From assembly GCF_000242635.2 (NCBI RefSeq), contig NC_017770.1, forward strand, positions 620,001 to 684,000: DNA of 64,000 bases, given 5' to 3'. Below the pieces are notes generated by a model. The model saw only the letters and a list, made by a program, of their open reading frames with translations, did not search any database and was not told the DNA's origin. Made by a program: the position numbers and the translations under genes. Source of the stretch: Solitalea canadensis DSM 3403. Its GTDB lineage: Bacteria > Bacteroidota > Bacteroidia > Sphingobacteriales > Sphingobacteriaceae. Below, in pieces: positions 23,375 to 50,363 of the stretch; positions within the stretch are counted from its first letter, which is position 1, and every line of letters starts with the position of its first letter.

Positions 23375-23402
23375 AAATCTAAAATCTAATAGCTCATTAT
23401 CT
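23375..23402 (-). repeat. heptamer array between response regulator and kinase genes
   Basis: Two perfect tandem copies of AAATCTA followed by ATAGCTC and ATTATCT in the same 7-bp phase. The array overlaps the stop codon of the response regulator gene (23401-23403). No inverted second arm is seen. Confidence 0.45.
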
Positions 23403-24078
23403 AATTATTAATCTTATAACCAATACTTCTTACCGTTTCAAACCAATCGATAGGAGTGTGGGCTTGTAATTTTTTGCGAAGATTTTTTACATGAACATCA
23501 ACAAAGTTGGAGTCACTGTTTATCTCTAAAACATCACCCCAAACATGTTCAGTTAATTGAAGGCGAGAAATAACGCGGTTTTTATTTAAAACTAAGAAGT
23601 TTAAGATATCAAATTCCTTTTTTGTAAGGTTAATTTTGGAGTCCTTAAAACTTACTTCCCGGTTCTGAATATCAATTACAAAACCGTGCAAGTTAATATC
23701 ATTTTTAACGAGACGATGCTTGCGTCGTAAAATAGCATGCATCCGTGAATGCAATTCAGAAAGATCGAATGGTTTACCCAGGTAATCGTCGGCGCCCAGA
23801 TTCAGGCCTTTTACCTTGTCTTCGGTAGCACCCCTGGCAGTTAAGACAATAATTGCATCTTCGCGGTTAGGAAGTTGCCTGAATTCCTTTAGTAAATCTA
23901 ATCCATCTCCATCAGGTAAACCTAAGTCGAGTAAAACAAAATCATAAGTGTTTACGAAAAGTTTTTCGGCAGCCTCTCTTTTATTGTAAGCTAAATCACA
24001 AAGAAAACCCTCATACTTAAGGAATTTTGCTATTTCATCAGACAAGCTGTACCTGTCTTCAATAATTAGAACGTTCAA
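23401..24078 (-). CDS. OmpR/PhoB-family response regulator
   Basis: 225 residues. The receiver domain has the acidic pocket IIEDR, phospho-acceptor D51 in LLDLGLPDGDG and the conserved K102 in DDYLGKPFD. A winged-helix DNA-binding domain from about 130 to 224 ends in ETVRSIGYKI, with NFVDVHVKNLRKKL as the recognition region. It is paired with the downstream kinase. Target genes are unknown; the Lys/Ala-rich secreted protein gene is the nearest candidate only by location. Confidence 0.93.
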   Translation of the reverse strand: MNVLIIEDRYSLSDEIAKFLKYEGFLCDLAYNKREAAEKLFVNTYDFVLLDLGLPDGDGLDLLKEFRQLPNREDAIIVLTARGATEDKVKGLNLGADDYLGKPFDLSELHSRMHAILRRKHRLVKNDINLHGFVIDIQNREVSFKDSKINLTKKEFDILNFLVLNKNRVISRLQLTEHVWGDVLEINSDSNFVDVHVKNLRKKLQAHTPIDWFETVRSIGYKINN

Positions 24079-24139
24079 TTTATATTAGATTTTAAGGATC
24101 AATTATACAATTTATGATAATTCTATAAAAGGCACAAAA

Positions 24140-25333
24140 TCAGCTATTCAGAATTTCATTGATGCTTTCTAAGATAATGGAGCAAGCTTTCCTTATTTCA
24201 GCTTCTGTAATGATTAAAGGGGGCGCGAGCCGTAGTGAGTTACTGCAATGCAAAAACCAGTCGGTAATTAGTCCTTTTTCGATACAGCGATCAATAATTT
24301 TCTTATTGGTTTCAAAACTTTCAAACTCGATGGTAAACATTAATCCTTTTCCTCTAAAATCAAGAATTGCCGAATGTTGTAACAACTGTTTAAATAGTTG
24401 ATGTTTAGCTTCGACTTGATCTATCAGGTTTTCTTCTAATAAAGCTTCAAAACCAGCTAATCCTGCCGCACAACACACCGGATGACCACCAAAAGTAGTA
24501 ACATGACCCAATATTGGGTCGTTTTTTAAACTCGACATTATTTCTAAGGAAGAAATAAATGCTCCGATTGGCATTCCTGCACCTAGTGCTTTTGCTAAAA
24601 GAAGCACATCTGGAACAATATTAAAGTGCTCGAACGCAAATAATTTCCCGGTACGCCCCATTCCTGCTTGTATCTCATCAAGAATTAACAATGTTCCAGT
24701 TTCTGTACAGCGTTTTCTTAAAGCTTGCATGTATTCGATAGCCGGCACTCTGATACCTGCTTCACCTTGGATTGTTTCCATAATTACACAAGCCGTACGC
24801 TCAGTAATTTGTTTTAAATCTGGTAAATGATTAAAGTTGATGAAGCGAACATCAGGTAAGAGGGGGCGAAATGCATATTTATAATCCTCATTTCCCATTA
24901 CACTCAGCGCTCCGTTAGTGCTTCCATGATACGCATTTTTACAGGCAATTATTTCTGTTCTCCCTGTAAAGCGCTTAGCCAGTTTTAAAGCACCTTCAGT
25001 AGCCTCTGCACCCGAATTAACAAAGTATACAGATTGTAATGATGAGGGTAAATGAGCTGCAAGTTTTGCTGCAAATAAGGTTTGTGGAGCTTGAATAAAC
25101 TCTCCGTATACCATTTGATGCATAAATGTGGCAGCTTGATCTTTAATTGCTTTAACCACTTTTGGATGGCAATGGCCAATATTGCTAACCCCAATACCGG
25201 ATATAAGGTCGATAGAAGGACGATCATTTTTATCATACAGATAAATTCCCTGAGCTCTGGTGAACTCTAGCATTAAAGGAAAATCGGTAGTTTGGGCGTT
25301 ATGTTGTAGGAATTGCTGACGTAATGGAATCAT
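24140..25333 (-). CDS. class III PLP-dependent aminotransferase
   Basis: 397 residues, full length for the acetylornithine/4-aminobutyrate aminotransferase family. Visible are NSGAEATEGALKLAKRFTGR, the PLP-binding aspartate in ILDEIQAGMGRTG, the Schiff-base lysine in LLLAKALGAGMPIGAF, and THxx-type FGGHPVC. Substrate could be acetylornithine, ornithine or another omega-amine; no arginine or polyamine genes are adjacent, so I do not give a symbol. The start is 4 nt after GAAATTTG, one base off the -7 consensus, suggesting a near-leaderless message. Confidence 0.88.
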   Translation of the reverse strand: MIPLRQQFLQHNAQTTDFPLMLEFTRAQGIYLYDKNDRPSIDLISGIGVSNIGHCHPKVVKAIKDQAATFMHQMVYGEFIQAPQTLFAAKLAAHLPSSLQSVYFVNSGAEATEGALKLAKRFTGRTEIIACKNAYHGSTNGALSVMGNEDYKYAFRPLLPDVRFINFNHLPDLKQITERTACVIMETIQGEAGIRVPAIEYMQALRKRCTETGTLLILDEIQAGMGRTGKLFAFEHFNIVPDVLLLAKALGAGMPIGAFISSLEIMSSLKNDPILGHVTTFGGHPVCCAAGLAGFEALLEENLIDQVEAKHQLFKQLLQHSAILDFRGKGLMFTIEFESFETNKKIIDRCIEKGLITDWFLHCSNSLRLAPPLIITEAEIRKACSIILESINEILNS

Positions 25334-25465
25334 TCTGCAAATTTCGTCAAAATAGTTTAATCCACCTGCTTGTCGAATGTATCATTTTTTATGGCTGAGC
25401 TAGTTTTTTGTACCAATTTTTTCAAAAATAGCGTTTATACCTGTTCCGTTTTTTATCTTCATTTT

Positions 25466-26365
25466 ATGATTACTACCTTACAAGAAAGAGAGGTTTCTGG
25501 TTTTACCTGGATCGATGTTGAAAACCCGACACCCGAAGAGCTTAATGATATCGCATTAAAATATAACCTGCATTATACTTCTGTTCAGGATTGCCTTGAT
25601 CCGGAGCATTTGCCTAAGTATGAGGTTATTGATGATGTGATTTTTATTATAGCCCGTATCTTCGACCAGAATGCAAAGGTAGAGGCATTGGATATAAACT
25701 CCATTACTCGCAAGATCGCTATCTTTTCTTCAGATGGTTTGGTTATAACCATTCATCGTTCTTCCCAACCTTTTTTAATTCATCTGCAGCAACGGTGTGA
25801 AAGCATGAAAAAATCGCCGGGTAGGTTTCAGTTATTAGCATTGATCATGGATCATGTGGTAATTTCATTTGAAAGTCCGTTGGATAAAATAAATGAGCTG
25901 CTAGAGTTTTATGAAGAACGTATGTTCCTTAAAACACGTTTGCCTAATTTATTGCAACACTTCTATCAATTGAAGAGGAAAGCTACATCTATTAAAAGGA
26001 CGGTTTTTCTTACTAAGGATATCGTATTTCGGATTTCAGAGAACCTGAAAGGACCCATAATGCAAGATCTTAAGGATACAATAATTGAGGTGGAAACAAG
26101 TACGGAGCAGGTAATAGATTCTGCTAGCAACTTGTTGAGCATCTATATTTCATTAGCTTCTCAGAAAACAAATGAAGTAATGCGTGTTTTAACGATTTTC
26201 TCCGTGTTCTTTATGCCTTTAACTTTTATTGTGGGGGTGTACGGGATGAATTTTGAAAACATGCCCGAAATTAAATCGCCACATGGTTATGGAGTAACAT
26301 GGGTTGTTATGATCTTAGTGACGATTATTGTTTATTTCTGGTTTAGAAGGAAAAGGTGGCTGTAA
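25466..26365 (+). CDS. corA: CorA-like divalent metal ion transporter
   Basis: The frame extends upstream to a TTG, but the first 32 residues there are uncharacteristic; the ATG at 25466 gives the usual N-terminus (MITTLQEREVSGFTWIDVEN), 299 residues. A soluble alpha/beta cytoplasmic domain and long stalk helix are followed by two C-terminal membrane helices separated by the signature YGMNF (within VGVYGMNFENMPE). The C-terminus is basic (FRRKRWL). CorA pentamers import magnesium or cobalt. Single gene, divergent from the aminotransferase. Confidence 0.92.
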   Translation: MITTLQEREVSGFTWIDVENPTPEELNDIALKYNLHYTSVQDCLDPEHLPKYEVIDDVIFIIARIFDQNAKVEALDINSITRKIAIFSSDGLVITIHRSSQPFLIHLQQRCESMKKSPGRFQLLALIMDHVVISFESPLDKINELLEFYEERMFLKTRLPNLLQHFYQLKRKATSIKRTVFLTKDIVFRISENLKGPIMQDLKDTIIEVETSTEQVIDSASNLLSIYISLASQKTNEVMRVLTIFSVFFMPLTFIVGVYGMNFENMPEIKSPHGYGVTWVVMILVTIIVYFWFRRKRWL

Positions 26366-26386
26366 TTAGGCTATTCGCTTTTGGCC

Positions 26387-26453
26387 TTTAGCAATTAGCA
26401 ATTTATAAGGCAGGTAATGCTAATAGCTAATACCTAATAGCTATTAGCTAATC
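26387..26453. repeat. inverted heptamer arrays (TTAGCWA) between convergent genes
   Basis: The left arm has TTTAGCA and ATTAGCA in tandem (26387-26400). The right arm has five consecutive 7-mers: GCTAATA, GCTAATA, CCTAATA, GCTATTA, GCTAATC (26419-26453). The arms are reverse complements in type, so the transcript folds. The right arm ends 1 nt before the stop codon of the Spy-like gene. Confidence 0.7.
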
Positions 26454-26454
26454 A

Positions 26455-26919
26455 TTAATTTTCAGGAGGTTGTTGTGACTGACTTCTTAGGCGTTTTATA
26501 AGCTCACGCTTAAATTGTTCTTCGGCCATGTAAAACTTCGCGACTTTCTTCATTGAAAGTACTTTCTTGAATTTGTCGTAATATTTACGCTCCAGATCAA
26601 GTTCGCGTTGTTTAACGGAGAAGTCATTCAAAATCACATCTTCTAATTCTTTGTCGCTCAAATTATCGGCATTCATTCTTGCCATTACAATCTTCTGACG
26701 ACGTTCCTTTAGCAAACGCTGCTTTTCTGCGTCATATTCATTATAAATTGGCCAGAAAACTTTACCTTCTTCTGTGGTTAAGCCCACTTTTGTAGTTATG
26801 ATGGAAACTTTAAGTGCGTCAATATCAGCCTTTCGTTGATTAAAGTTTTGTGCTTTTACCAGAAAAGGAAGGGTTACAAATAAAATGAGCAATAAAGTAG
26901 ATAAGTTGAGTTTCTTCAT
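26455..26919 (-). CDS. periplasmic Spy/CpxP-like protein, third gene of a sigma factor operon
   Basis: 154 residues with a signal peptide cleaved after VKAQ (about residue 23). The mature part is a charged helical protein in which FNQRKADIDALKVSII and later QRELDLERKYYDKFKKVL resemble the antiparallel hairpins of Spy/CpxP-like proteins. Homologues in Bacteroidota are often labelled sensor of ECF sigma factor. It starts 3 nt after the membrane protein gene, in an operon with the ECF sigma factor. Its role as an envelope stress sensor or chaperone is inference. Confidence 0.75.
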   Translation of the reverse strand: MKKLNLSTLLLILFVTLPFLVKAQNFNQRKADIDALKVSIITTKVGLTTEEGKVFWPIYNEYDAEKQRLLKERRQKIVMARMNADNLSDKELEDVILNDFSVKQRELDLERKYYDKFKKVLSMKKVAKFYMAEEQFKRELIKRLRSQSQQPPEN

Positions 26920-26922
26920 TTG

Positions 26923-27594
26923 TTATAGTTCCTGTAGTAATAAATCTTCGTCTACGTTATTTAAAATATAGTTTTCCAGCTTGTTGTTTTGATCAGTTTT
27001 TTGTGTGTTATTTTGAGAAACCTTAGTATTAATTACTTCATCTATAATCATTGATTCATCGAAATAATTAAGGTCATAATTATGATTACCAATTTTTACC
27101 ACATTTACAGGACTGCTCATTTGTTTATCGAGTAAGCTCGTATGATAAATATTAGAGCCAAACCAAAATAGTAAGGCTCCTAAACAAGCAGTAATTGCTA
27201 GTTTATAAAATCTAAATACAAATATTTTTTGAGCTTGTTCAAACTCAGAATTAGCAATATCATTAAAAATCTGCTCTTCAATTGCGATGGGTAGATTATT
27301 AAAATACTCATCAGGAACAGTAAAAGGGTTTTTATTATTTAAATCAGGAATCGAAAGTCGTACATCATCATCTTTTAACTGATTTTCAATTCTGGTTGAG
27401 AGCTCGTTAAAATAATCATCAGGTGTTTTGAACGGATTTACATTGGTAAGTCCTTCGATAGTTGGTCCGGCATCTTCCATTTCAATGCGAACCATGATAC
27501 GAGATGCCAAAGAATCAAAGTAATCCTTAGGTACTGTATACGGCGACGATTGTTGTGGTTTGGGAATGCTATTTTCAAATTCGTTATTTTCCAC
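26923..27594 (-). CDS. membrane protein with triple FxxPxxYF motif, probable anti-sigma partner
   Basis: 223 residues. The cytosolic N-terminal part contains three related segments at about residues 18-38, 53-73 and 90-110: SPYTVPKDYFDSL, NPFKTPDDYFNEL and NPFTVPDEYFNNL, each followed by an amphipathic helix. One membrane helix (about 131-150) precedes a short acidic periplasmic tail. Position between an ECF sigma gene and a periplasmic sensor gene suggests it tethers the sigma factor, though no zinc-binding anti-sigma motif is present. Confidence 0.7.
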   Translation of the reverse strand: MENNEFENSIPKPQQSSPYTVPKDYFDSLASRIMVRIEMEDAGPTIEGLTNVNPFKTPDDYFNELSTRIENQLKDDDVRLSIPDLNNKNPFTVPDEYFNNLPIAIEEQIFNDIANSEFEQAQKIFVFRFYKLAITACLGALLFWFGSNIYHTSLLDKQMSSPVNVVKIGNHNYDLNYFDESMIIDEVINTKVSQNNTQKTDQNNKLENYILNNVDEDLLLQEL

Positions 27595-27706
27595 CTCGAA
27601 ATCCTTTGTTATTATTTTGTGAGCTTTTAGATTTAGATTGAAAAAACTCTGAATGGTTTAATTAAAATGTAAAATTCGGATTTTATTTATATTATTGTAG
27701 AAACGA

Positions 27707-28261
27707 TTACTCGTTTTGTTTGAAATATTCTTCAATTTTTTTGACTGCATGATGATAAGATGCTTTTAATGCTCCTACGCTTGTATCCAAAACTTCAGAC
27801 ATATCTTCATATTTCATTTCGTCAAAATATTTCATGTTAAAAACAATCCGCTGCTTTTCAGGCAATGTTAATATGGCACGTTGGAGTTTCATTTGGATGT
27901 GATTACCATCAACATACATGCTGTCCGTTAACTTGTCAACTAAATATCCTGCGTGATCCTCGAAACTCTCTGAAGCACGCATTTTTTGACGATTTAAAAA
28001 AGTAATGGATTCATTAGTGGCAATCCGATAGAGCCATGTGTAGAGTTGTGCGTCTTCCCTGAAATTATCAAGGTTTTTCCAAACCTTAATAAAAACTTCT
28101 TGTATCACATCGTCAGCATCATCATGATCGATAACTATACGACGTATATGCCAGTAAATGCGTTTTTGATATTTTTCTATAAGTTGACTAAAAGCAAGAT
28201 TTCTGGTTGATTCATCGCGAAATCTTGTTAATAAGTCTTTATCACTAAAATCTTCTTTCAT
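27707..28261 (-). CDS. ECF-subfamily RNA polymerase sigma factor
   Basis: 184 residues with region 2 (YTWLYRIATNESITFLNRQ and DADDVIQEVFIKVWKNL) and region 4 (LPEKQRIVFNMKYFDEMKYEDMSEVLDTSVGALKASYHHAVKKIEEY). This is the standard two-domain ECF layout with no extensions. It directs transcription of a small regulon, probably including its own operon. The 112-nt gap before the downstream membrane protein gene is longer than the 3-nt gap that follows, so some separate control is possible. Confidence 0.93.
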   Translation of the reverse strand: MKEDFSDKDLLTRFRDESTRNLAFSQLIEKYQKRIYWHIRRIVIDHDDADDVIQEVFIKVWKNLDNFREDAQLYTWLYRIATNESITFLNRQKMRASESFEDHAGYLVDKLTDSMYVDGNHIQMKLQRAILTLPEKQRIVFNMKYFDEMKYEDMSEVLDTSVGALKASYHHAVKKIEEYFKQNE

Positions 28262-28332
28262 GAAGTTATTATATCAATTAGCTGGTAGCAGCCTAAATTA
28301 GTAAAAAATTAAGACCAAACAAGGTTAATAAA

Positions 28333-28360
28333 AAAGCCTTTGTGGTAACACAAAGGCTTT
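28333..28360 (-). terminator. terminator of the transketolase C-terminal subunit gene
   Basis: Perfect 12-bp stem AAAGCCTTTGTG and complement, 4-nt loop GTAA, followed by six T on the minus strand. Confidence 0.88.
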
Positions 28361-28384
28361 CAAATTGATATACAACTATTGAAA

Positions 28385-29338
28385 TTATTTACGAGCCATT
28401 ACAGCTTTAACAGCTTTAACAATATGATCTTTGTCAAGACCATATTTCGCCATTAACTGATCCGGAGTACCACTTTCACCAAATGAGTCATTCACTGCAA
28501 CATATTCCATTGGAGTAGGTAATTTTTGCGATAATACTTGAGCAATACTATCTCCTAAGCCTCCAATACGATTATGCTCTTCACAGCTTACAACGCAACC
28601 TGTTTTAGCTGCAGAAGCTAATACCAGTTCAGCATCTAATGGTTTAATTGTGTGGATATTAATGATCTCTGCGCTAATGCCCATTTCTGCCAACATTTCA
28701 CCTGCTTCAATAGCTGGCCATACTAAGTGACCGGTAGCGAAGATGGTTACATCCGTTCCTTCATTTAACACAATACCTTTACCGATTTCAAACTTCTGAT
28801 CAGCTGGAGTGAAGTTAGGAACTGTTGGGCGACCGAAGCGCAGGTAAACTGGTCCAACATGCTCTGCAATGGCAATGGTGGCAGCTTTGGTTTGATTAAA
28901 GTCACAAGGATTGATAACGGTCATTCCTGGTAACATTTTCATCATTCCGATATCTTCTAAGATCTGGTGGGTAGCACCATCTTCTCCTAAGGTTAAACCT
29001 GCGTGAGAAGCACATATTTTAACGTTTTTGTCGGAGTATGCAACCGATTGACGAATCTGGTCATAGACACGACCTGTTGAGAAGTTTGCAAAAGTTCCGG
29101 TAAAAGGAATTTTGCCACCGATGGTCATACCTGCTGCTAAGCCAATCATATTAGCTTCTGCAATACCCACCTGGAAGAAACGCTCAGGAAAATCTTTCTT
29201 AAACGCATCCATTTTTAATGAACCGATCAAGTCGGCACACAAAGCAACTACGTTAGGATTGGTTTTGCCTAATTCAGCTAAACCGGCACCAAATCCCGAA
29301 CGGGTATCTTTTTTCTCTGTGAAAGTATATTTTTTCAT
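28385..29338 (-). CDS. transketolase, C-terminal subunit
   Basis: 317 residues forming the pyrimidine-binding and C-terminal domains of transketolase. The catalytic glutamate lies in GIAEANMIGLAAGM, with TGTFANFSTGR, THQILEDIGMM and the EEHNRIGGLGDSIAQ C-terminal domain following. Together with the upstream gene it makes a split, two-subunit transketolase of the pentose phosphate pathway, common in Bacteroidota and archaea. The spacer between the two is 104 nt and contains degenerate heptamer repeats. Confidence 0.93.
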   Translation of the reverse strand: MKKYTFTEKKDTRSGFGAGLAELGKTNPNVVALCADLIGSLKMDAFKKDFPERFFQVGIAEANMIGLAAGMTIGGKIPFTGTFANFSTGRVYDQIRQSVAYSDKNVKICASHAGLTLGEDGATHQILEDIGMMKMLPGMTVINPCDFNQTKAATIAIAEHVGPVYLRFGRPTVPNFTPADQKFEIGKGIVLNEGTDVTIFATGHLVWPAIEAGEMLAEMGISAEIINIHTIKPLDAELVLASAAKTGCVVSCEEHNRIGGLGDSIAQVLSQKLPTPMEYVAVNDSFGESGTPDQLMAKYGLDKDHIVKAVKAVMARK

Positions 29339-29359
29339 TTTGAGTAAGGGTCTCAGTAA

Positions 29360-29400
29360 TTAGTCATCATTAGTTGTTGGAGACGAGCTAATTGCTAGTT
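29360..29400. repeat. degenerate heptamer repeats in the split transketolase spacer
   Basis: The right arm has GCTAATT and GCTAGTT in perfect 7-bp tandem (29387-29400); the left side has TTAGTCA (29360) and TTAGTTG (29370), 10 bp apart. The word is the same TTAGCWA-type unit as in the 26.4 kb array, in inverted orientation, but decayed. Confidence 0.4.
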
Positions 29401-29442
29401 GTAAGGTTTTTATTGAAATTAGTTTATCGCTAATAACAAAAA

Positions 29443-30300
29443 TTAATAATCGCCTAAATAATTATAACCGGTAGTTTCCTCTAGTTGGGCCAAAGCTTGT
29501 GCTAACTGCTCGTCGTTAGGAGCTACTCCATGCCATTTGTGTGATCCCATCATGAAATCAACACCTGCACCCATTTCGGTTTTCATTAAAATAACAACCG
29601 GTTTGCCTTTACCAGTTTGAGTTTTAGCGTAGTTAAGTGTTTTTACAACTTCGTCCATGTCATTGCCCGACATATCGATTACTTCCCATCCGAAAGCTTC
29701 CCATTTAGCGCGAAGATTTCCTAATGAAAGTACCTGATCTGTAGAACCATCAATTTGCTGACCGTTTACGTCAACTGTAGCAATAAGATTATCTACTTTA
29801 TTGTGAGCTGCATACATTGCAGCTTCCCAAATTTGTCCTTCTTGTAATTCTCCATCACCGTGCAAGCTAAAAACAATGCTCTTGTCATTGTTTAGTTTTT
29901 TAGTTTGCGCAGCTCCAAGAGCAACAGACAGTCCCTGACCTAATGAACCAGACGCCATACGAACTCCTGGCAGGTGTTCATGCGTAGTAGGGTGTCCCTG
30001 TAAACGTGAGTTTAGCTTACGGAAAGTAGCTAATTCTGAAATAGGGAAATAACCCGAACGGGCTAATACACTGTAGAACACTGGTGAGATATGTCCGTTT
30101 GAAAGGAAGAAAACATCCTCTCCGATGGCATCCATGTTAAACTCAGGGTTATGATTCATCACCTCGAAGTATAAGGCTACCAAATAATCAGTACAGCCCA
30201 GCGAACCTCCCGGGTGACCGGAATTTACTGCGTGAACCATCCTAACAATGTCGCGACGTACTTGCGAAGCAATCTTTTTTAACTCTTCTGTAGTTGGCAT
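29443..30300 (-). CDS. transketolase, N-terminal subunit
   Basis: The frame extends upstream, but the ATG at 30300 (MPTTEELKKIASQVRRDIV) fits the family and follows a good promoter; 285 residues. It is the thiamine-diphosphate-binding half: HPGGSLGCTDYL, HISPVFYS, ASGSLGQGLSVALG and the metal/ThDP motif GDGELQEGQIWEA...N. It pairs with the downstream C-terminal subunit to transfer two-carbon ketol units. It is first in the operon. Confidence 0.93.
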   Translation of the reverse strand: MPTTEELKKIASQVRRDIVRMVHAVNSGHPGGSLGCTDYLVALYFEVMNHNPEFNMDAIGEDVFFLSNGHISPVFYSVLARSGYFPISELATFRKLNSRLQGHPTTHEHLPGVRMASGSLGQGLSVALGAAQTKKLNNDKSIVFSLHGDGELQEGQIWEAAMYAAHNKVDNLIATVDVNGQQIDGSTDQVLSLGNLRAKWEAFGWEVIDMSGNDMDEVVKTLNYAKTQTGKGKPVVILMKTEMGAGVDFMMGSHKWHGVAPNDEQLAQALAQLEETTGYNYLGDY

Positions 30301-30344
30301 TTCTTGGATTTTAATAGTTAAAATGAAGATACTGAACGATTTAT

Positions 30345-30362
30345 TTTTTGCGCGCAAAAATA
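30345..30362 (-). promoter_or_regulatory. promoter with overlapping 16-nt palindrome for the split transketolase
   Basis: On the minus strand TATTTTTG (30355-30362) matches TAnnTTTG. The perfect palindrome TTTTTGCGCGCAAAAA (30345-30360) overlaps the -7 element and the predicted start near 30348, leaving a 48-nt leader. It could bind a repressor, or be chance in AT-rich DNA. Confidence 0.5.
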
Positions 30363-30462
30363 AGGATTTAATTGAGCATTAATGTCTTTTTTGTGAAATA
30401 GTTCGTATCAATCTTATTGCTGGTTAATAAGAAAAGGAATTTATTTGAAGTAAAAAGATGAA

Positions 30463-31782: not shown

Positions 31783-31790
31783 AATGGAGG

Positions 31791-31798: not shown

Positions 31799-31813
31799 GG
31801 AAATTAGTTTTAT

Positions 31814-31886
31814 AGTCTTGAGTCTTGAGTCTTGAGTCCGGAGTCCGGATTATAGACTCAAGGCTCGAGACTCAAAACTCATGACT
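31814..31886. repeat. inverted heptamer arrays (AGTCTTG type)
   Basis: Left arm: AGTCTTG three times and AGTCCGG twice in perfect 7-bp tandem (31814-31848). Right arm (31855-31886) read on the minus strand: AGTCATG, AGTTTTG, AGTCTCG, AGCCTTG, AGTC. The arms form a hairpin of about 30 bp with a 6-nt loop. The right arm stops 3 nt before the aldehyde dehydrogenase stop codon. Confidence 0.8.
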
Positions 31887-31889
31887 AAA

Positions 31890-33847: not shown

Positions 33848-33860
33848 AGTCTTTATTTTT

Positions 33861-34031
33861 AGATGTGAGATATGAGATGTGAGATTTCTTTATTAGTCCG
33901 ATAGACTTACCAGACCCAGCTTATCTCAAATCCCATATCTAATTATTTATTAGTCGGATAATCTTATAGATAATATCTCAATTCCTCGACCAGTTATATC
34001 TCAAATCTCACATCCCACATCTCAAATCTAA
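33861..34031. repeat. complex heptamer array (AGATGTG type) with a duplicated right arm
   Basis: Left arm: AGATGTG, AGATATG, AGATGTG, AGATTTC (33861-33888). Inverted units occur twice: ATCTCAA, ATCCCAT, ATCTAAT at 33923-33943, and ATCTCAA, ATCTCAC, ATCCCAC, ATCTCAA, ATCTAAT at 33998-34032. Both copies are followed by TATTTAT and preceded by a TTAGTC(C/G)GATA...GACCAG-like segment, so a segment of roughly 60-80 bp has been duplicated. The last unit overlaps the M23 gene stop codon. Confidence 0.75.
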
Positions 34032-42459: not shown

Positions 42460-42807
42460 ATGACTCATCTTTTTTCACGTACTGTTATGTACACGCTTGT
42501 TTTTATAATTGGTGTTATTGTTAATAGTGGATGTGCTACTGCTCAAAAGAACTACAAAATGTCTGATGCTGAAATAAAAATGATTGTTATTTCCCGTGGA
42601 AGTTACCAATACCTGGTTAGGATAGGGGAGACCACTTATTTTCCAAAGAATCTGAGTGAGGAATTTAAGCAGGATGGGCTAAAAGTTCATTTAACTTATA
42701 AAGTATTGGAATTAAAAGAAAAGGTTTATAAGCCTTCACCAACAGATGTTCCTGAAGTTGACTATGAAGTTAACGTTATTGAGATAAAAGAGATGAAGCT
42801 GAAATAA
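42460..42807 (+). CDS. small lipoprotein of unknown function
   Basis: The frame opens at a TTG (42433), but ATG 42460 yields a compact lipoprotein signal peptide with lipobox VNSGC (cysteine about residue 20); 115 residues. The mature region contains a small beta-rich part (IVISRGSYQYLVRIGETTYF) and ends in alternating charged strands (EVNVIEIKEMKLK). I do not recognise the family. It follows the PAP2 gene by 36 nt and may share its transcript. Confidence 0.6.
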   Translation: MTHLFSRTVMYTLVFIIGVIVNSGCATAQKNYKMSDAEIKMIVISRGSYQYLVRIGETTYFPKNLSEEFKQDGLKVHLTYKVLELKEKVYKPSPTDVPEVDYEVNVIEIKEMKLK

Positions 42808-42817
42808 CTTAAAAAAA

Positions 42818-42847
42818 GAAAAGTCCCGCTCTCCCACGGGACTTTTC
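42818..42847. terminator. bidirectional terminator between lipoprotein and M43 protease genes
   Basis: Perfect 11-bp stem GAAAAGTCCCG and complement around an 8-nt loop, A-rich before and T-rich after, between convergent genes. Confidence 0.85.
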
Positions 42848-42865
42848 CATATAAATCGAAATAAT

Positions 42866-43876: not shown

Positions 43877-43950
43877 GTGATTGTAATTAAAAGTTAATTA
43901 TTGATTGAATTTGTAAGTGTGACATAAGTAAGGTGCATGTGTAAATGCAG

Positions 43951-44028
43951 ACTCCGGGTGGAACAATACAAGACTCTCCCATGCCCTGGAAGAGAACTCT
44001 TGTAATTTCTAATAATTCCAACCCTGAG
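43951..44028. ncRNA. rod-like structured element, possible small RNA or 5' UTR structure
   Basis: The outer stem pairs ACTCCGGGTGGAA (43951-43963) with TTCCAACCCTGAG (44016-44028); the inner stem pairs ACAAGACTCTCC (43968-43979) with GGAAGAGAACTCTTGT (43988-44003). Between them is an asymmetric internal loop of 4 and 12 nt. This is GC-richer than its surroundings. Strand and function are unknown; it could belong to the M43 gene leader on the minus strand. Confidence 0.35.
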
Positions 44029-44449
44029 ATTATTATTGATAGGTGAGATATTGAGCGTTTGTATAGAAGAAGGTGAAACCTATTGATTTGATTTTATCAC
44101 TAATGGAGGTCTGGTTGTTAAGTGTTTTCATAAGAAATAATAAGCAGAAAAGAGAGTTTTAAACGTTTTTACTTAATTAACTTTCTTGATATAAATGTGT
44201 GATCGTGTTTGTAAAAATAATGATACGTTTTTTTTCTATCTTATTAAAATTCTGTGAGTTGAATAAAGTTTAAAAAATGCTTAAAAGGCATCTTTCTGGT
44301 TATTAATTGATTAATAAAAAATATATTATCCTGAAAAGATGTTAATGCTAAATTGAGTTTGGTTTTCATCTTTTCAAAATAATTTATAATTGATTTAAAA
44401 CTTTTGAAAAATAATATTTTGCTGTAATTTATTTATGTAAAATAAAAAA

Positions 44450-44473
44450 CGGGGCAATGTTTCCACAGCCCCG
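44450..44473 (-). terminator. terminator of the M3 oligopeptidase gene
   Basis: CGGGGC/GCCCCG stem with a 12-nt loop, followed by six T on the minus strand; 27 nt past the stop. Confidence 0.75.
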
Positions 44474-44499
44474 CTATACAAAATATTATGGTAAGTAAC

Positions 44500-46188
44500 T
44501 TAGTCGAGTTTACTTAATTCTGATTTTACAAACTGCATTAGTTCGTGCACATATTCTTTACTGAAATTAAACGGAATACCGGCAGTTTTATAGATTTCAC
44601 CAATAGGCTTTGTATATCCAAGTTTTAAAGCGCTTAAATAATTATCTAATGCTTTCTCTGGATTTTCCTTATAATTTCTCCATACAGCGATAGCTCCCAA
44701 TTGTGCGATGGCATATTCAATGTAATAAAAAGGAACTTCGAACAAATGAAGCTGTTTTTGCCATAAATTGGTTTTAGCCTCTTCATATCCTGTCCAGTCG
44801 ACAAAGCCGGCACCGAAACGATTGTAGATACTGATCCATGCTTCATTTCGTTCTTCTACAGAATGTTCAGGGTGGGTATAGATCCAATGTTGAAATGCAT
44901 CAATTACTGCTACCCATGGAAGCGTTTTAAGAACATCTTTTAATTGATCTTTTTTGGCCCGAATCAGGTCTTCTTCCTTGTCAAAAAATACGTCCCATTG
45001 GTCCATTGAAATTAATTCCATCGACATAGATGCAAGTTCTGCGATCTCAGATGTCAGATGCTTAAAATCATTCAATTCAAGATCAGATGAAATAAAAGTA
45101 TGAACAGCATGACCGCCTTCATGCACCATTGTGCTTAAGTCACGCATTGAGTTAGCTGAATTCATGAAAATGAAAGGCATTCCGGTTTCAGCTAATGGAT
45201 AATTATAACCTCCTGGCGACTTTCCTTTGCGCGATTCAACATCAAACAGGCTGCGTTCTTTCATGGTGGTTAAACATTCACCCAAATAAGGATGCAGTTG
45301 TTCAAAGCATAAAATGGATTTGTCTACCAGCTCTTGTCCGTTGTTAAATGGCTTTAGCATCGGTTTTCCTGAAACATCTACATCAGTATCCCAAGGCTTC
45401 AACTCATTTAAACCTAAAGCGTCTTTTCGCTTTTCTGCTTGCTCTTTTAATAAAGGAACTACTTCTTTTTCAATTGCTTCGTGAAACTGAAAACAATCTT
45501 CAGGAGTGTAATCAAAGCGTCCCATTGAAGCGAAAGCATAATCTCTGTAATTGTCAAAACCTGCATTTTTTGCAACCTGTTGGCGCAGATTGATCAACGT
45601 AGTGTACAATTCATTAAGCTTGTCCTTGTCTTGCAGTCTGCGTGAGCTGATCGTTTCATAAGCTTGCTGACGAACTTCTCTGTTAGTATCTTTCAAGAAA
45701 TTGGAAGCCTGTTCAAGTGTATATTCCTTATCGTTGATTATTACACTCATTGCTCCTGAAATGCCTCCAAACTTCTGTTGCTCAACCTGAAGCTGGCTCA
45801 TTAACGGAATATTTTCTTCCCTAAATAATTCCAATTGTTTCTTGATTCCCCGAATAAGAATAAAGTATTTATTCTGATCCAGTTCTTTTAAGGAAGGAGC
45901 ATTGATGAACTTTTTATTAAGTTCATTAGTGTATGGAGCAATTTTAGGTTCAATTTCAGTAGCAAAGTATTGAAAATCGGCTACTAGCTTTTCATCTGTA
46001 GTATCACATGTCATCTTAATATAACGCCATGCAAAATCTTCTTCTAAGGCAGCCTCAAGCTCGCTTCGATCAAGCAGCCATTTTTCCAGATCTGCTTTAG
46101 TATCAAAATTAGCGATGAGCAATTGTTTATAATAAGACTCGATACTTTCAAATGTTATGTTGAATTGTTGAGGGATGAAATTTCTCAT
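44500..46188 (-). CDS. M3-family oligoendopeptidase (PepF-like)
   Basis: 562 residues, the usual size of the PepF/oligoendopeptidase branch of M3. The catalytic motif HEGGHAVHTF lies near residue 355, followed by the downstream glutamate-containing helix SEIAELASMSMELI. No signal peptide, so it is cytoplasmic and degrades peptides of roughly 7-20 residues. Monocistronic. The spacer before the start holds a heptamer array. Confidence 0.92.
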   Translation of the reverse strand: MRNFIPQQFNITFESIESYYKQLLIANFDTKADLEKWLLDRSELEAALEEDFAWRYIKMTCDTTDEKLVADFQYFATEIEPKIAPYTNELNKKFINAPSLKELDQNKYFILIRGIKKQLELFREENIPLMSQLQVEQQKFGGISGAMSVIINDKEYTLEQASNFLKDTNREVRQQAYETISSRRLQDKDKLNELYTTLINLRQQVAKNAGFDNYRDYAFASMGRFDYTPEDCFQFHEAIEKEVVPLLKEQAEKRKDALGLNELKPWDTDVDVSGKPMLKPFNNGQELVDKSILCFEQLHPYLGECLTTMKERSLFDVESRKGKSPGGYNYPLAETGMPFIFMNSANSMRDLSTMVHEGGHAVHTFISSDLELNDFKHLTSEIAELASMSMELISMDQWDVFFDKEEDLIRAKKDQLKDVLKTLPWVAVIDAFQHWIYTHPEHSVEERNEAWISIYNRFGAGFVDWTGYEEAKTNLWQKQLHLFEVPFYYIEYAIAQLGAIAVWRNYKENPEKALDNYLSALKLGYTKPIGEIYKTAGIPFNFSKEYVHELMQFVKSELSKLD

Positions 46189-46201
46189 TGTTGTTAAGTA
46201 A

Positions 46202-46316
46202 TTACGTATTGCGTATTACGAGTTACTGGTTTTTACTGAATTTAATGATTAATTGATTAGCTATTAGTGATTAATCAATTATTAATTGAACTCGAAACAC
46301 GTAACCCGCAACTCGA
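46202..46316. repeat. nested inverted heptamer arrays (NCGWRTT type) upstream of pepF
   Basis: Left arm: ACGTATT, GCGTATT, ACGAGTT in tandem (46204-46224). Right arm (46289-46316) read on the minus strand: TCGAGTT, GCGGGTT, ACGTGTT, TCGAGTT. Inside is a second structure with AATTGATTA (46251-46259) paired to TAATCAATT (46272-46280), itself containing TTAGCTA and TTAGTGA 7-mers. The array ends 3 nt before the prenyltransferase stop codon. Confidence 0.75.
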
Positions 46317-46319
46317 AAT

Positions 46320-47171
46320 CTATTTTAAATACACATCTGCGAGGAAAAATACAGCGAATACAACGCTTGCAATTCCGTTTGCGGTCATAAAGGCTAAGTT
46401 TACTCTACTTAGATCGTTTGGTTTAACAACAGAATGCTGATAGATAAGCATGCCGATATAACCTGTAACACCTATCCAGTAAAAAATGCCGAAGTTTCCT
46501 AAGTAACCTGCAGCTATTACAAATAGTGCAGAGAAAACGTGTAAAACCGACGAAAAGTTTAACGCTTTTTTTGTTCCCAACCATTCCGGGATAGAATGTA
46601 GTTTTTGAGAACGATCAAAATCTTCGTCTTGTAATGCATAAATAATATCAAAACCGCTTACCCAAGTAATTACTGCAAACGAAAATAAGATGGGTAAAAC
46701 CGCAAATTCACCTGTAACAACTAAATAGGCGCCAATAGGAGCTAATGAAAGGCCTAAGCCTAAAACCAAATGACAAAAGGAGGTAAAGCGTTTAGTATAA
46801 CTATAGCCTAAAACCACTAATAAGGCAATTGGTGATAAGTAAAAACAGATGCTATTAATAAAGTAAGTAGTAACTATAAATGCGGCACAGTTAAATACAG
46901 TAAAAAATAAAGCTTTCTGTGGACTAATAACTCCGGCTGGTATTTCACGTACTTTGGTGCGTGGGTTTTGTGCATCAAAATCACGATCTATATAACGGTT
47001 GAAAGCCATGGCTGCACTTCGGGCAAAGACCATACACGCTATCATCAACACAAATTTTTTCAAATCAAACGCCACTCCAGTTACTGATACGGCCAAAATG
47101 AATCCGATAATAGCAAATGGCATTGCAAAAATGGTATGACTGAATTTAATGAGGGATAAATAATTTTTCAT
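46320..47171 (-). CDS. UbiA-family prenyltransferase (UbiA/MqnP-like)
   Basis: 283 residues and about eight membrane helices. The first aspartate-rich motif is NRYIDRDFDAQNPRTKVREIPAG (residues about 58-80) and the second is DIIYALQDEDFDRSQK. The close RYIDRDFDAQNPRT wording is typical of UbiA-like enzymes assigned to 4-hydroxybenzoate or futalosine-route menaquinone (MqnP) prenylation. As MenG/UbiE is 850 bp away, quinone synthesis is a fair inference; which quinone route is not settled. It follows engB closely in the same direction. Confidence 0.85.
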   Translation of the reverse strand: MKNYLSLIKFSHTIFAMPFAIIGFILAVSVTGVAFDLKKFVLMIACMVFARSAAMAFNRYIDRDFDAQNPRTKVREIPAGVISPQKALFFTVFNCAAFIVTTYFINSICFYLSPIALLVVLGYSYTKRFTSFCHLVLGLGLSLAPIGAYLVVTGEFAVLPILFSFAVITWVSGFDIIYALQDEDFDRSQKLHSIPEWLGTKKALNFSSVLHVFSALFVIAAGYLGNFGIFYWIGVTGYIGMLIYQHSVVKPNDLSRVNLAFMTANGIASVVFAVFFLADVYLK

Positions 47172-47196
47172 TTGTTGGTTTATGGCTTCTTTGTTT

Positions 47197-47838
47197 TTAT
47201 AAATCAGTATCTTCAGTTGATTTGATTTGGATATCGTCTAAATTAAAACTCTGGTTCACGCTATCAATGAATTCAAGTAATTCTTCACGCCCGCTTTTAT
47301 CCTCGGCGGAGGTAACAAATAGCTGCGGAACCTCTTCCCAGGTTTTCAATAGTTCATTTTTAAACAACTGAACGTTTTGAGCGGTTTTTCCTTTTGATTG
47401 CTTATCCGATTTGGTAAAAACAATTACAAAAGGTAATCCCAATTCTCCCAATGAGTCAATAAACTGTAAATCAATTTTTTGCGGCTCAAGTCTGGAGTCC
47501 ACCAACACCATTACGCATTGCAGGTTTTCTCTTTTTGATAAATACTGCCTGATAAATTTACCCCATTTTTCAGCAGAAGTTTTTGACACCCGGGCAAAAC
47601 CGTAACCAGGTAAATCCACCAAAAACCAATTGTTATTTATCTGGAAATGATTTATTAATTGAGTTTTACCGGGAGTTTGCGAAGTTTTAGCCAGTCCCTT
47701 TTTGCCCGTCAACATGTTAATCAATGATGATTTACCAACATTAGAACGGCCAATAAAAGCGTACTCGGGCAACGACGGAGGAGGTAATTTGCTTACCTGA
47801 GTGTTGCTGCAAACAAATTCAGCAGATTTTATGATCAT
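47197..47838 (-). CDS. engB: ribosome biogenesis GTPase EngB/YsxC
   Basis: 213 residues with the complete G-motifs: G1 [12 protein letters not shown] (30-41), G2 threonine in SQTPGKTQ, G3 DLPGYGFA and G4 TKSD. It assists 50S subunit assembly. A perfect TATCTTTG lies with its G only 5 nt from the start codon, so the message is predicted to be leaderless. It is divergent from ubiE across a repeat array, and is followed at a 25-nt gap by the prenyltransferase gene. Confidence 0.95.
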
Positions 47839-47842
47839 TCTG

Positions 47843-47850
47843 CAAAGATA
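47843..47850 (-). promoter_or_regulatory. -7 element TATCTTTG, leaderless engB promoter
   Basis: Exact TAnnTTTG on the minus strand; its G is 5 nt from the A of the engB ATG. The upstream side is occupied by the GTGTAATC repeat array. Confidence 0.6.
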
Positions 47851-47859
47851 GTATTTATT

Positions 47860-47999
47860 GATTATTGTGAGATTACACTGATTATTGTGGGATTACACCG
47901 ATTTTAATAGCGAAAGATCTCACATGGATATTATAATCATAGGTGTAATCAACAAACAATAATCTGTGTAATCAAAAAATCAATAATCAGTGTAATCCC
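47860..47999. repeat. inverted composite repeat GTGTAATC-n-CAATAATC between engB and ubiE
   Basis: Two 20-bp tandem units on the left (47860-47879 and 47880-47899, 18/20 identical) read GATTATTGTG(A/G)GATTACAC. Three units of opposite orientation on the right start with GTGTAATC at 47943, 47966 and 47990, each followed by (C)AATAATC after a variable gap. The array fills almost the whole space between the two -7 elements. Confidence 0.75.
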
Positions 48000-48008
48000 A
48001 AATAATCA

Positions 48009-48016
48009 TATCTTTG
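48009..48016 (+). promoter_or_regulatory. -7 element TATCTTTG, leaderless ubiE/menG promoter
   Basis: Exact consensus; the G at 48016 lies 8 nt from the A of the ATG at 48024, so transcription should start at or next to the start codon. Confidence 0.6.
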
Positions 48017-48023
48017 CCTCACG

Positions 48024-48755
48024 ATGGCAGAAGCAGTTAAACCTTACAAAGAATTAGATTCGACTAAGAAAGAGCAAGTAGCTCAAATGTTTGATAAAAT
48101 TGCAGGAAAGTACGACTTCCTGAATCATTTTCTTTCATTCGGAATTGATATTTGGTGGCGAAAAAAGGCGATAAGTGAACTTAACGCTATTAAACCGAAC
48201 TTGATTTTAGATGTTGCAACCGGCACCGGTGATTTAGGTTTTAAAGCAATTGAAATGTTAAAGCCTGAAAAAGTTATTGGTATCGATATTTCGGAAGGAA
48301 TGCTGGCTTTTGCAGAAAAGAAAATAGCAGAACGCAACCTACAGAACGTTTTTTCAGTACAGGTAGGAGATTCTGAAAATCTGCCATTTGCTGATAATAC
48401 ATTTGATGCAGTAATAGTGAGTTTTGGGGTTCGTAACTTTGAAAACTTAGAAAAAGGGCTGGTAAATATTCAGCGTGTATTGAAACCGGGAGGAAAAGCT
48501 GTAGTATTAGAATTCTCCAAACCAACAATGTTTCCTTTTAAACAATTATATAATTTCTATTTTTTTAACTTACTTCCGTTTTTTGGAAAATTTGTTTCAA
48601 AAGACAACAGTGCTTATACGTATTTGCCGGAATCTGTTTATGCATTTCCGGACGGTGAAAAATTTACAGATATTATGAAGCGCTCAGGATTTCAACAAAC
48701 TAAAATTAAAAAACTAACGTTAGGAATAAGTTCAATCTATACAGGAATTAAATAA
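48024..48755 (+). CDS. ubiE: demethylmenaquinone/ubiquinone C-methyltransferase
   Basis: 243 residues. Signature opening VAQMFDKIAGKYDFLNHFLSFGID, SAM-binding motif I ILDVATGTGD (61-70), and the family motif with SVSFGVRNFENLEKGL-type wording (VSFGVRNFENL), ending in a C-terminal YTGIK. It C-methylates the quinone ring; in this phylum the product is menaquinone, so menG is equally appropriate. It is 3 nt ahead of porT, so they form an operon, an arrangement I recall from other Bacteroidota. Confidence 0.95.
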   Translation: MAEAVKPYKELDSTKKEQVAQMFDKIAGKYDFLNHFLSFGIDIWWRKKAISELNAIKPNLILDVATGTGDLGFKAIEMLKPEKVIGIDISEGMLAFAEKKIAERNLQNVFSVQVGDSENLPFADNTFDAVIVSFGVRNFENLEKGLVNIQRVLKPGGKAVVLEFSKPTMFPFKQLYNFYFFNLLPFFGKFVSKDNSAYTYLPESVYAFPDGEKFTDIMKRSGFQQTKIKKLTLGISSIYTGIK

Positions 48756-48758
48756 CCA

Positions 48759-49499
48759 ATGAAAAAAGCCTTACTGTTCGTAATTTTTGCGCTTCTCAGT
48801 CTTTCAGTTAATGCTCAGTTTTTAAACACAGGCGGCGACATTGATCATGAACGGTTAAACTTCGGTTTTTTATTGGGCATAGACAGAGGGTCATTTGTAG
48901 TTGCCAAACAGAGTGATTTCAGTATACCTGGTTCAAATCCATACACTCCCAATGATACGCTACAGGCTATCAAACCTTTGGGCAGCATGGGGTTTAGTCT
49001 TGGGCTACTAGCTAACTTAAACCTTTCAAAGAACTTCGACCTGCGTTTTACACCTAAATTCTCTTTCATCGACAGACAGTTGGAATTTGAGTACAATAAA
49101 GCCTCTGATCGAAAAGTTTATAATAAAAAGGTTGAATCGACATTTTTGGAACTGCCACTATTATTGAAATTTAAATCAGACCGCCAGCGTGATGTGCGTA
49201 TGTACATTATTGGAGGGATTAAATTTGTGACAGACATTCGTTCAAAAAAGAAAAAGAACGATGATTCTGATTTTAATCCTGACGATGATCGTAAGTTGGT
49301 TAAAATCAATAACAGCTTTTTTGCTGTTGAAGCAGGCATCGGAGCTGATATCTATTTGGAGTATTTTAAATTTTCACCTGAATTTAAACTCTCCCGCAGC
49401 ATGACCAATGTGATGAAAAAGGGAGACGATAACTTATTTACACGTCCATTAGCAGGTCTGTTCGCTGAAGCATTTCACTTTACGATGTATTTCGAATAA
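48759..49499 (+). CDS. porT: type IX secretion protein PorT (outer-membrane beta-barrel)
   Basis: 246 residues with a signal peptide ending at VNAQ and a predicted 8-stranded barrel with an acidic/lysine loop (RSKKKKNDDSDFNPDDDRKL). PorT is an outer-membrane T9SS component encoded right after UbiE/MenG in this phylum; the gene order and the GGDIDHERLNFGFLLGIDRGSF opening support the call. The C-terminus is FTMYFE, an aromatic-ending final strand. A simple porin-like assignment is the alternative. Confidence 0.8.
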   Translation: MKKALLFVIFALLSLSVNAQFLNTGGDIDHERLNFGFLLGIDRGSFVVAKQSDFSIPGSNPYTPNDTLQAIKPLGSMGFSLGLLANLNLSKNFDLRFTPKFSFIDRQLEFEYNKASDRKVYNKKVESTFLELPLLLKFKSDRQRDVRMYIIGGIKFVTDIRSKKKKNDDSDFNPDDDRKLVKINNSFFAVEAGIGADIYLEYFKFSPEFKLSRSMTNVMKKGDDNLFTRPLAGLFAEAFHFTMYFE

Positions 49500-49551
49500 T
49501 ATTAATTGGCGGAAACTCCGTTATTCAACTTACACTCAAAAATTATTACCA

Positions 49552-50310
49552 ATGAATAAGATAGTAATGATTACAGGTGCCACCGCAGGGATTGGTGAGG
49601 CCTGTGCTCATGTATTTGCCAAAAATAACTACGATCTGATACTCACAGGAAGACGTGAAGGCCGATTAATGAGCCTTACCAATGAGTTGAAAGAAACCTA
49701 TAAGATCAATGTACTTCCAATGGTTTTTGATGTTCGTGAGTTAAGTGAAGTGAAAAATGCTATTGATAGTCTGGATGAAAAGTGGAAAGCAATAGATATT
49801 TTAGTGAATAATGCAGGTTTGTCGGTAGGACTTGAGCCAATTCAGGAAGGATCTTTTGATGATTGGAACCGAATGATAGATACTAATGTTAAAGGCTTAT
49901 TGCATATTACACGTTTAGTAAGTCCTTTAATGATTGCACGTAAAAGCGGACATATCATCAATCTTGGGTCAATTGCCGGTAAAGAAACTTATGCAAACGG
50001 TAATGTTTACTGTGCAACAAAACATGCAGTTGATTCATTAAATAAAGCAATGCGCATTGATTTATTACCCCATAATATAAGGGTAAGTGCAATAAATCCG
50101 GGTGCAGTTGAAACAGAATTCTCTCTTGTGCGTTTTAAAGGGGATGATGAACGTGCTAAAAACGTTTATAAAGGATTCGAACCCTTAACAGCTGCTGATA
50201 TTGCCGATACAATTTATTATGTCGCTTCATTACCTCCGCATGTAAATATTAATGATTTAACCATTATGCCAACTGCACAGGCAAATACAGTTTATTGGAA
50301 TAAAAATTAA
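49552..50310 (+). CDS. short-chain dehydrogenase/reductase (YdfG-like)
   Basis: 252 residues, classical SDR: cofactor motif TGATAGIGEA (7-16), NNAG, catalytic serine in NLGSIAG and YxxxK as YCATK. The C-terminal PGAVETEFSLVRFKGD and FEPLTAADIADTIYYVASLP match the YdfG/NADP-dependent 3-hydroxy acid dehydrogenase subgroup that oxidises serine or 3-hydroxyisobutyrate-like substrates. Substrate here is unproven. Followed by a short decayed heptamer array and the YqeY gene. Confidence 0.9.
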   Translation: MNKIVMITGATAGIGEACAHVFAKNNYDLILTGRREGRLMSLTNELKETYKINVLPMVFDVRELSEVKNAIDSLDEKWKAIDILVNNAGLSVGLEPIQEGSFDDWNRMIDTNVKGLLHITRLVSPLMIARKSGHIINLGSIAGKETYANGNVYCATKHAVDSLNKAMRIDLLPHNIRVSAINPGAVETEFSLVRFKGDDERAKNVYKGFEPLTAADIADTIYYVASLPPHVNINDLTIMPTAQANTVYWNKN

Positions 50311-50325
50311 TGTGAATTAATGATT

Positions 50326-50363
50326 ATGAGTAGTGTATTGCAAAGAAATAATACGTAACTCGC
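50326..50363. repeat. small inverted heptamer array (NCGWRTT type) before yqeY
   Basis: Left: ATGAGTA and GTGTATT in tandem (50326-50339), i.e. the 46.2 kb unit with C-to-T changes. Right (50350-50363) on the minus strand: GCGAGTT and ACGTATT, both fitting NCGWRTT exactly. The arms flank a 10-nt loop. Confidence 0.55.

Follow-up and report, generated by a model that had tools for sequence, protein, structure and literature searches.

Several intergenic spacers of the bacterium Solitalea canadensis DSM 3403 contain tandem arrays of 7-bp words, some of which face a reverse-complement array across a loop, and the question raised by these loci is whether such repeats are by-products of slippage, selfish elements, or binding arrays. 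The window, i.e., the whole stretch of DNA analysed, comprises 64,000 nucleotides (positions 620,001-684,000) of the chromosome, which is a single contig of 5,202,069 bases. Among the dnaE matches listed, the top-ranking ones from named organisms belong to Daejeonella and Desertivirga (67 to 69% identity), in keeping with a probable place in the Sphingobacteriaceae. The heptamer arrays in the spacers of this genome are real, and their words recur at many unlinked spacers in a fixed polarity. The explanation that we favour, with a little more confidence than doubt, is that the arrays are dispersed, non-coding palindromic elements, which form a population of several families, resemble repetitive extragenic palindromic (REP) sequences and are renewed by copying.

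Chromosome-scale scans covered 1.264 of the 5.202 Mb, with genes taken as the longest open reading frames (ORFs) called; this portion holds 744 spacers (159,548 bases) and 1.10 Mb of coding sequence, and the spacers of related genomes were likewise taken from part of each genome. Exact lag-7 runs of at least 10 number 29 in the spacers, versus 0.8 in shuffles and 0 in the coding sequence; lags 14 and 21 are also elevated (19 and 17), and the counts at all other lags between 2 and 30 are 0 to 4. By an approximate score, 31 of the 744 spacers pass at period 7 and none passes in any of four shuffles, which settles in favour of the arrays the comparison of spacers with shuffled controls that a first-pass annotation of the window had proposed. 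Between 1 and 3 spacers pass at periods 5, 6, 8, 9 and 10. Counted by period, 38 spacers fall at 7 and 28 at 14, with 1 to 3 for any other lag between 4 and 13, in agreement with the earlier statement that the unit length is always 7. That statement holds for S. canadensis and fails in its relatives, where units of 8 and 9 bases are also used and a unit length fixed at 7 is thereby ruled out. For example, genome G016 (G numbers are genome handles) has 4 spacers at period 7 and 7 at period 8, G190 has 2 at period 7 and 12 at period 8, and a syntenic block of the two (mean protein identity 94% over 50 reciprocal best pairs) includes several spacers with differing arrays or hairpins of units 7, 8 and 9. 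Octamer hairpins (AGTCCGAA, GTGCAGAT and GTTGAAAG) and nonamer hairpins (AAGTTGATT) in this block (loci L168-L177) have the same arm architecture as the heptad hairpins, and the G190 stretch is mostly of period 8.

About five word families recur on the S. canadensis chromosome. In left-arm notation they are family A, RG[AT][CT][CG]AT (AGTTCAT and AGTCCAT); family B, AGATNTG; family C, GGTTNCG; family D, AGCTATT; and family E, AGTCNNG. Counted with these patterns, which were set down after the array scan and derived from the same data, tandem words are present in 62 of the 744 spacers, versus 4, 2 and 5 in shuffles. Two-word arms have a density of 558 per Mb in spacers and 38 per Mb (42 in all) in coding sequence, and since shuffled spacers yield 13 to 44 per Mb, the density in coding sequence does not exceed background. 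The recurrence of the families contradicts the earlier view that words are specific to their loci and rules out a unique word per locus. All 27 spacers with two arms carry the AG-type arm on the left, and in 26 of them the leading family is identical in both arms; some arms are nested mirror-wise, e.g., at 1,572,623, where family D is outer and family E inner. The median distance from an arm to the gene end is 10 bases on the left and 16 bases on the right, and 17 of the 36 spacers with at least three tandem words fall in the 1.5-1.9 Mb block.

The same chromosome offers two further observations on individual arrays. At 307690-307931 (G000:C1), a long (AATC)n tetranucleotide run lies between two family C arms. 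At 312-341 kb (G000:C1, L023 and L024), a series of paralogs, all transcribed from the same strand and resembling MacB/FtsX-type permeases in their N-terminal sequence, has family D arrays in several of its spacers and a different palindrome, GTAGAGACAAGACATGTCTTGTCTC, in two.

Within the window, the lag-7 score of each spacer was compared with 2000 dinucleotide shuffles of that spacer. The first-pass annotation had listed eight spacers with tandem 7-mers, and period 7 is supported at 31.8 kb (score 26.0, P=0.0005), 26.4 kb (17.5, P=0.0005), 33.9 kb (15.0, P=0.001), 23.4 kb (10.0, P=0.0015) and 46.2 kb (9.0, P=0.0025), at all of which Tandem Repeats Finder also detects period-7 arrays. The periodicity is weak and unsupported by this test at 29.4 kb (5.5, P=0.06), and it is likewise unsupported in the spacer at 50.3 kb (4.0, P=0.33) and in the dnaE leader at 14.4 kb (5.0, P=0.26, for its last 202 bases). 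The accompanying claim that most of these spacers have reverse-complement arms stands for 31.8, 33.9, 26.4 and 46.2 kb. At 31.8 kb, a left arm of family E (AGTCTTG and AGTCCGG words; 31813..31848, + strand; Tandem Repeats Finder) faces a right arm of GACTCAA-type words (31855..31887, - strand), the arms being 82% complementary over 33 nt. At 33.9 kb, a left arm of family B (AGATGTG and AGATATG words; 33859..33887, + strand), found both by Tandem Repeats Finder and by the inverted-arm scan, is followed by an inner right-arm fragment (33923..33942, - strand; inverted pair I3) and by a right arm of CANATCT words (33998..34031, - strand; 29 nt, 90% complementary) that ends at the stop codon of an M23 peptidase gene. 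The convergent spacer at 26.4 kb has a family D left arm of TTAGCAA and TTAGC words (26388..26403, + strand; inverted-arm scan) 3' of the stop of a CorA gene and a right arm of GCTAATA words (26415..26452, - strand; 5.6 copies at 84% by Tandem Repeats Finder), with a complementarity of 74% over 31 nt. At 46.2 kb, the family C left arm consists of ATTACGT, ATTGCGT and ATTACGA words (46201..46226, + strand; inverted-arm scan) and the right arm of degenerate CGNAACY words (46289..46319, - strand; inverted pairs I2 and I3); the outer pair is 74% complementary over 23 nt and an inner pair 82% over 22 nt. Weak arms occur at 29.4 kb, in a degenerate hairpin of TTAG and CTAA words (29370..29440; 24 nt, 71%), and in the dnaE leader (15 nt, 80%). 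The inverted-arm scan finds no pair at 50.3 kb or at 23.4 kb, where a short tandem AAAATCT array (23371..23397) stands without an inverted partner. A hairpin with longer words, of period 20 on the left and 24 on the right and with arms up to 95% complementary, occupies 47857-47997 in the spacer that separates a divergent GTPase gene from a ubiE-like gene, and may be a related element built on a longer unit. Known RNA families and tRNA genes were ruled out as explanations for the arrays by 0 Rfam matches at the gathering threshold and 0 tRNA genes in the window.

In the favoured explanation, each element has tandem RGNYNNN words in its 5' arm, their reverse complements in its 3' arm, and a variable loop between the two, and the elements lie in spacers near gene ends. 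New elements would be copied from a master, as happens in the sequence clouds of REPs and of REP doublets forming hairpins (REPINs). After copying, they would decay, would gain or lose 7-base units by replication slippage, would persist where neither genes nor promoters are broken, and would be transcribed as 3'-end or intercistronic hairpins. Copying from the current master combined with slippage would account for the shared words, the fixed polarity, the mirror order, the turnover, and the word replacement.

The order of words within arms points to copying in two of five relatives, G179 and G181, where arms cluster round one master order. Among 59 arms of G179, 19 begin AGTTCAT-AGTTGAT-GGTTCAT, and identical three-word arms make 206 pairs versus 116 when columns are permuted, a number not reached in 5000 trials (100 of 118 windows of words used). 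In G181 the C-class form of the same order leads (9 of 42 arms), the leading order common to both genomes being AGTYCAT-AGTYGAT-GGTYCAT, and 38 pairs are identical versus 13.2 permuted (P=0.0004) with all 78 windows included; a first run had used 65 of the 78, with two perfect or palindromic arrays omitted. Arms are uniform for T or C at the fourth position in 21 of 21 cases in G016 (8.9 by chance) and 20 of 22 in G151 (9.8 by chance), with no such effect in G136 (11 of 15 versus 11.3).

A degenerate lexicon, RG-W-T/C-S-AT, is similar in two genera, that of S. canadensis and genus g14. The latter is probably Mucilaginibacter, because a named Mucilaginibacter dnaE matches five g14 genomes near full length at 79 to 80%; with four genomes from two other genera the same gene aligns only piecemeal, at 68 to 76%. 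Neighbours of anchor words have A or G at position one in 80 of 100 cases in S. canadensis and 170 of 193 in g14, with G alone at 29% and 45% versus 10% and 12% in background 7-mers. The preferences for A/T at the third position and C/G at the fifth, relative to background, are weaker for AGTTCAT and clearer for AGTCCAT.

The 33.9 kb spacer measures 184 bases with its arrays in S. canadensis and is array-free at 24 to 27 bases in all three congeners (G001-G003); in G002, 1 of 114 spacers (220 kb) passes at period 7, the same as in its shuffle. One orthologous g14 spacer, recovered from 30 species, carries tandem words in 28 by eye and in 16 by score (at least 9), and the words, assigned by eye to six classes, are AGTT[CG]AT in 7 species, AGTC[CG]AT in 3, AGTCNNN in 13, GGATTTC in 3, AAAGCTN in 1 and GAATATC-type in 1, with none in 2. 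At three such sites, picked because G016 carries an array there and each searched in the best 30 of 149 genomes, a score of at least 9 is reached by 16 of 30, 15 of 23 and 5 of 12 recovered spacers, G016 included (the two further sites yielded 23 and 12 of 30). The single array-free control spacer gives 2 of 27, and one shuffle of each set gives 0.

The majority word class differs genome-wide between species that are about 89% identical at the compared locus. In three-word windows, which are overlapping windows of words and not loci, the ratio of RGWTSAT to RGWCSAT is 163/5 in G286, 116/32 in G016 and 58/136 in G190, and the identity to G016 at the compared locus is 90% for G286 and 89% for G190. 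The corresponding counts are 173/5 in G278, 39/127 in G265 and 88/74 in S. canadensis. This count included 31 genomes; the backwards-read control was 0 in G286, G016 and G190 and 0 or 1 across the six genomes given, and two other genomes where it reached 8 and 3 were excluded from the comparison. A tentative and rather improbable extension of these observations is that a trans-acting Bacteroidota system, either a sequence-specific copying enzyme or a binding factor, installs or preserves hairpins of tandem words at fixed spacer positions, with the accepted word as a switchable genome-wide setting. If so, hundreds of sites would change their word together while site and architecture are kept.

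Several results weigh against renewal by copying. After its self-match, the 31.8 kb array has at best a 76% BLAST match over 79 of 111 bases in the S. canadensis genome, and thus a recent complete copy of it was not seen there; six weaker matches lie elsewhere in the genome. Neither a target-site duplication nor a clean, aligned pair of empty and filled sites was obtained, and the elements could not be linked to any transposase; nor is there a candidate for an autonomous element, with arms round a transposase gene, among the S. canadensis single arms listed. The absence of arrays from congeners could be loss instead of gain: family A four-word windows (again overlapping windows, not loci) number 54 in S. 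canadensis but also 9 in G001 and 3 in G003, with 0 in G002, and they are present in 32 of 151 genomes of the taxonomic family. The word-order signal is absent from the remaining three of the five relatives, i.e., from G016 (4 pairs versus 2.0, P=0.12; 21 of 47 windows, 26 being listed and 5 overlapping ones dropped), G151 (0 versus 0.7; all 22 windows) and G136 (0 versus 0.1; all 15). Finally, the similar lexicon in two genera would also fit selection by a binding factor.

Such a word-selecting factor is the main alternative, and it could work jointly with copying. The arms would then be repeated protein or RNA binding sites, or bidirectional 3'-end hairpins or terminators, under selection, and the lexicon would reflect the tolerance of the factor. 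The lexicon shared by two genera and the continued occupation of array sites across species favour this possibility, as does RNA folding: the median folding z is -3.8 in the 18 of 27 two-arm spacers that are shorter than 260 bases, versus -1.4 in 60 other spacers. The spacers with at least three tandem words also include a higher share of convergent spacers (11 of 123; P=0.035 versus the rest) than of co-directional (21 of 484) or divergent ones (4 of 137; P=0.38 versus the rest), but this excess could reflect tolerance. Moreover, selection on function fits poorly with an almost array-free congener (G002), with shifts of word and unit length between close species, and with arrays between the same-strand permease-like paralogs, where a strong terminator would be odd. 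An extra strong hairpin is enclosed in only 3 of the 27 two-arm spacers, compared with 0 to 3 in shuffles, in a scan that parsed the spacer at 1,564,360 wrongly; arms as a general wrap round existing terminators were rejected on this count. We consider functional sites under selection an unlikely explanation for the arrays as a whole.

Somewhat less likely still is a local origin, in which slippage of 7-base units builds every array where it stands and one arm is copied onto the other by a template switch across the hairpin. Slippage in 7-base steps, which had been suggested in the first-pass annotation, finds support in one species pair that is about 90% identical at the locus, where G016 has five and G286 three left-arm words round one conserved loop, a copy number differing by unit steps. 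Heptanucleotide repeats are reported to be over-represented and, in most genomes, more common than any other long repeats, and the footprint of the polymerase has been put forward as the explanation; PMC4679880 and PMC4692102 attribute these points to a 2007 study by Mrazek and colleagues. The single leading family common to both arms in nearly all two-arm spacers is also consistent with local copying. However, arms match at the level of the family and not measurably at the level of the locus in S. canadensis, so the claim that arms match within one spacer survives only in the former sense: in within-family comparisons of small numbers and low power, the duplex energy of arms from the same spacer is not above that of arms from different spacers (family A, 12 loci, P=0.17; B, 4 loci, P=0.96; C, 3 loci, P=0.34; D, 7 loci, P=0.79). 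Conversion between arms, the other process suggested earlier, is thus unsupported in S. canadensis and mixed in relatives: the first three words of the left and right arms are identical in 6 of 13 pairs in G179 (13.5% expected, P=0.004) and in 0 of 14 in G181, or 6 of 27 pooled with 2.7 expected. The genome-wide recurrence of words at unlinked spacers and the polarity common to all two-arm spacers contradict an exclusively local origin, and the genome-wide difference in majority word class between close species also stands against it.

It is very improbable that the arms are the REP or REPIN sequences of a REP-associated tyrosine transposase (RAYT, Y1_Tnp): there are two Y1_Tnp matches in S. 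canadensis and ten in the array-rich G016, and the master-order clouds of G179 and G181 resemble REPINs, but in 29 of 30 Y1_Tnp loci fetched, with flanks of about 230 to 260 bases on each side (some shorter at contig ends) and with 1 of the 2 S. canadensis and 2 of the 10 G016 matches covered, other hairpins and no heptad arms were seen by eye, and a REP is a single short palindrome without tandem-word arms. Heptad arms were rejected as the REPs of the inspected loci on these grounds. Y1_Tnp genes at L189 and L213 in G016 and others elsewhere are flanked by REP-like hairpins of their own, and more than one kind can occur in a single genome.

The arrays share some properties with known repeats and differ from all of them in others. 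Dispersed intergenic palindromes and turnover are common to REP/REPIN systems with RAYTs and to the arrays, and the cloud round a master that marks the former has a counterpart in two of the five relatives (G179 and G181), but REP/REPIN systems lack tandem-word arms and the inspected RAYT loci show other hairpins. The arrays have tandem units of 7 above chance in intergenic DNA, as do long heptanucleotide simple sequence repeats (SSRs), known as short tandemly repeated repetitive (STRR) sequences or long SSRs (LSSRs), and they share a dispersed 7-bp unit with cyanobacterial STRRs. To our knowledge, cyanobacterial STRRs are not described as hairpins with inverted arms, nor as forming several such families in one genome.

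Published work already covers heptamer arrays in intergenic DNA, inverted pairs among them, and heptamer arrays in Bacteroidetes (PMC4679880), contrary to the earlier remark that none was known from Bacteroidota. GGGAATC and GGGGA(C/T)T heptamers are described from Xanthomonas and Nostoc: the intergenic arrays number 186 and 183 in two Xanthomonas genomes, with 70 and 75 convergent inverted pairs, and lie near the 5' neighbouring ORF with few in divergent spacers; a Calothrix heptanucleotide STRR example is mentioned, length and sequence vary between close species, and the function is given as unknown (PMC4692102). The S. canadensis arrays are likewise intergenic, with inverted pairs in the same convergent orientation. 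In contrast to the single G-rich word with quadruplex potential described there, about five mostly G-poor families coexist in S. canadensis, the word class varies by species at one site, and 8- and 9-base units are used in relatives. A GGGANTN word with regular G-tracts is absent from families A, B, D and E, and only some family C arrays (CGGGTTN) have G-tracts. TAACTGA heptamers are reported from Beggiatoaceae, cyanobacteria and five Bacteroidetes, some mixed with other heptamers; in the main genome of that study they are mostly direct repeats just upstream of start codons, with one indirect case, and the accessible part of the report mentions neither paired arms nor word replacement (PMC4679880). 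The S. canadensis arrays differ in having other words and paired arms, although the complementary strand of (TAACTGA)n reads (AGTTATC)n, a word compatible with the form RGNYNNN. We found no published description of multi-family inverted heptad hairpins in Bacteroidota, nor of several inverted families per genome, word replacement at orthologous sites, or a genome-wide difference in word class between close species, in a search that left subscription journals and preprints mostly outside; array words used as search text returned only papers unrelated by title.

Period 7 is also detectable more widely in the phylum. At 80 titled Bacteroidota dnaE loci, 13 of 729 spacers pass at period 7 with various words, versus 0 in one shuffle, and these include Daejeonella, Dyadobacter, Siphonobacter and Chitinophagaceae. 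At one locus, L272 of Dyadobacter sp. CY261, a (CGACCGC)n heptamer array that is perfect or nearly so precedes an inverted stretch, GGTCGGCGGTCC. The idea that an AGTC core marks the whole phylum was rejected: the pattern is found in 41 of 296 genomes, but its backwards-read control, itself a heptad core, gives about 80 (counted by hand). It was as this control that abundant CTGA-core heptads surfaced in two genomes of the phylum, G469 and G578 (185 plus 320 and 39 plus 50 matches), a pattern that would cover TAACTGA arrays.

Among the long repeats of most bacterial genomes, heptamer arrays are reported to be the commonest, and no accepted function for them was found in the literature cited. 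Since several families coexist in one genome, words differ between species at the same site, and the majority class differs between species about 89% identical at a compared locus, the old question of what such repeats are becomes testable by comparison of close species and by knockouts of candidate copying genes.

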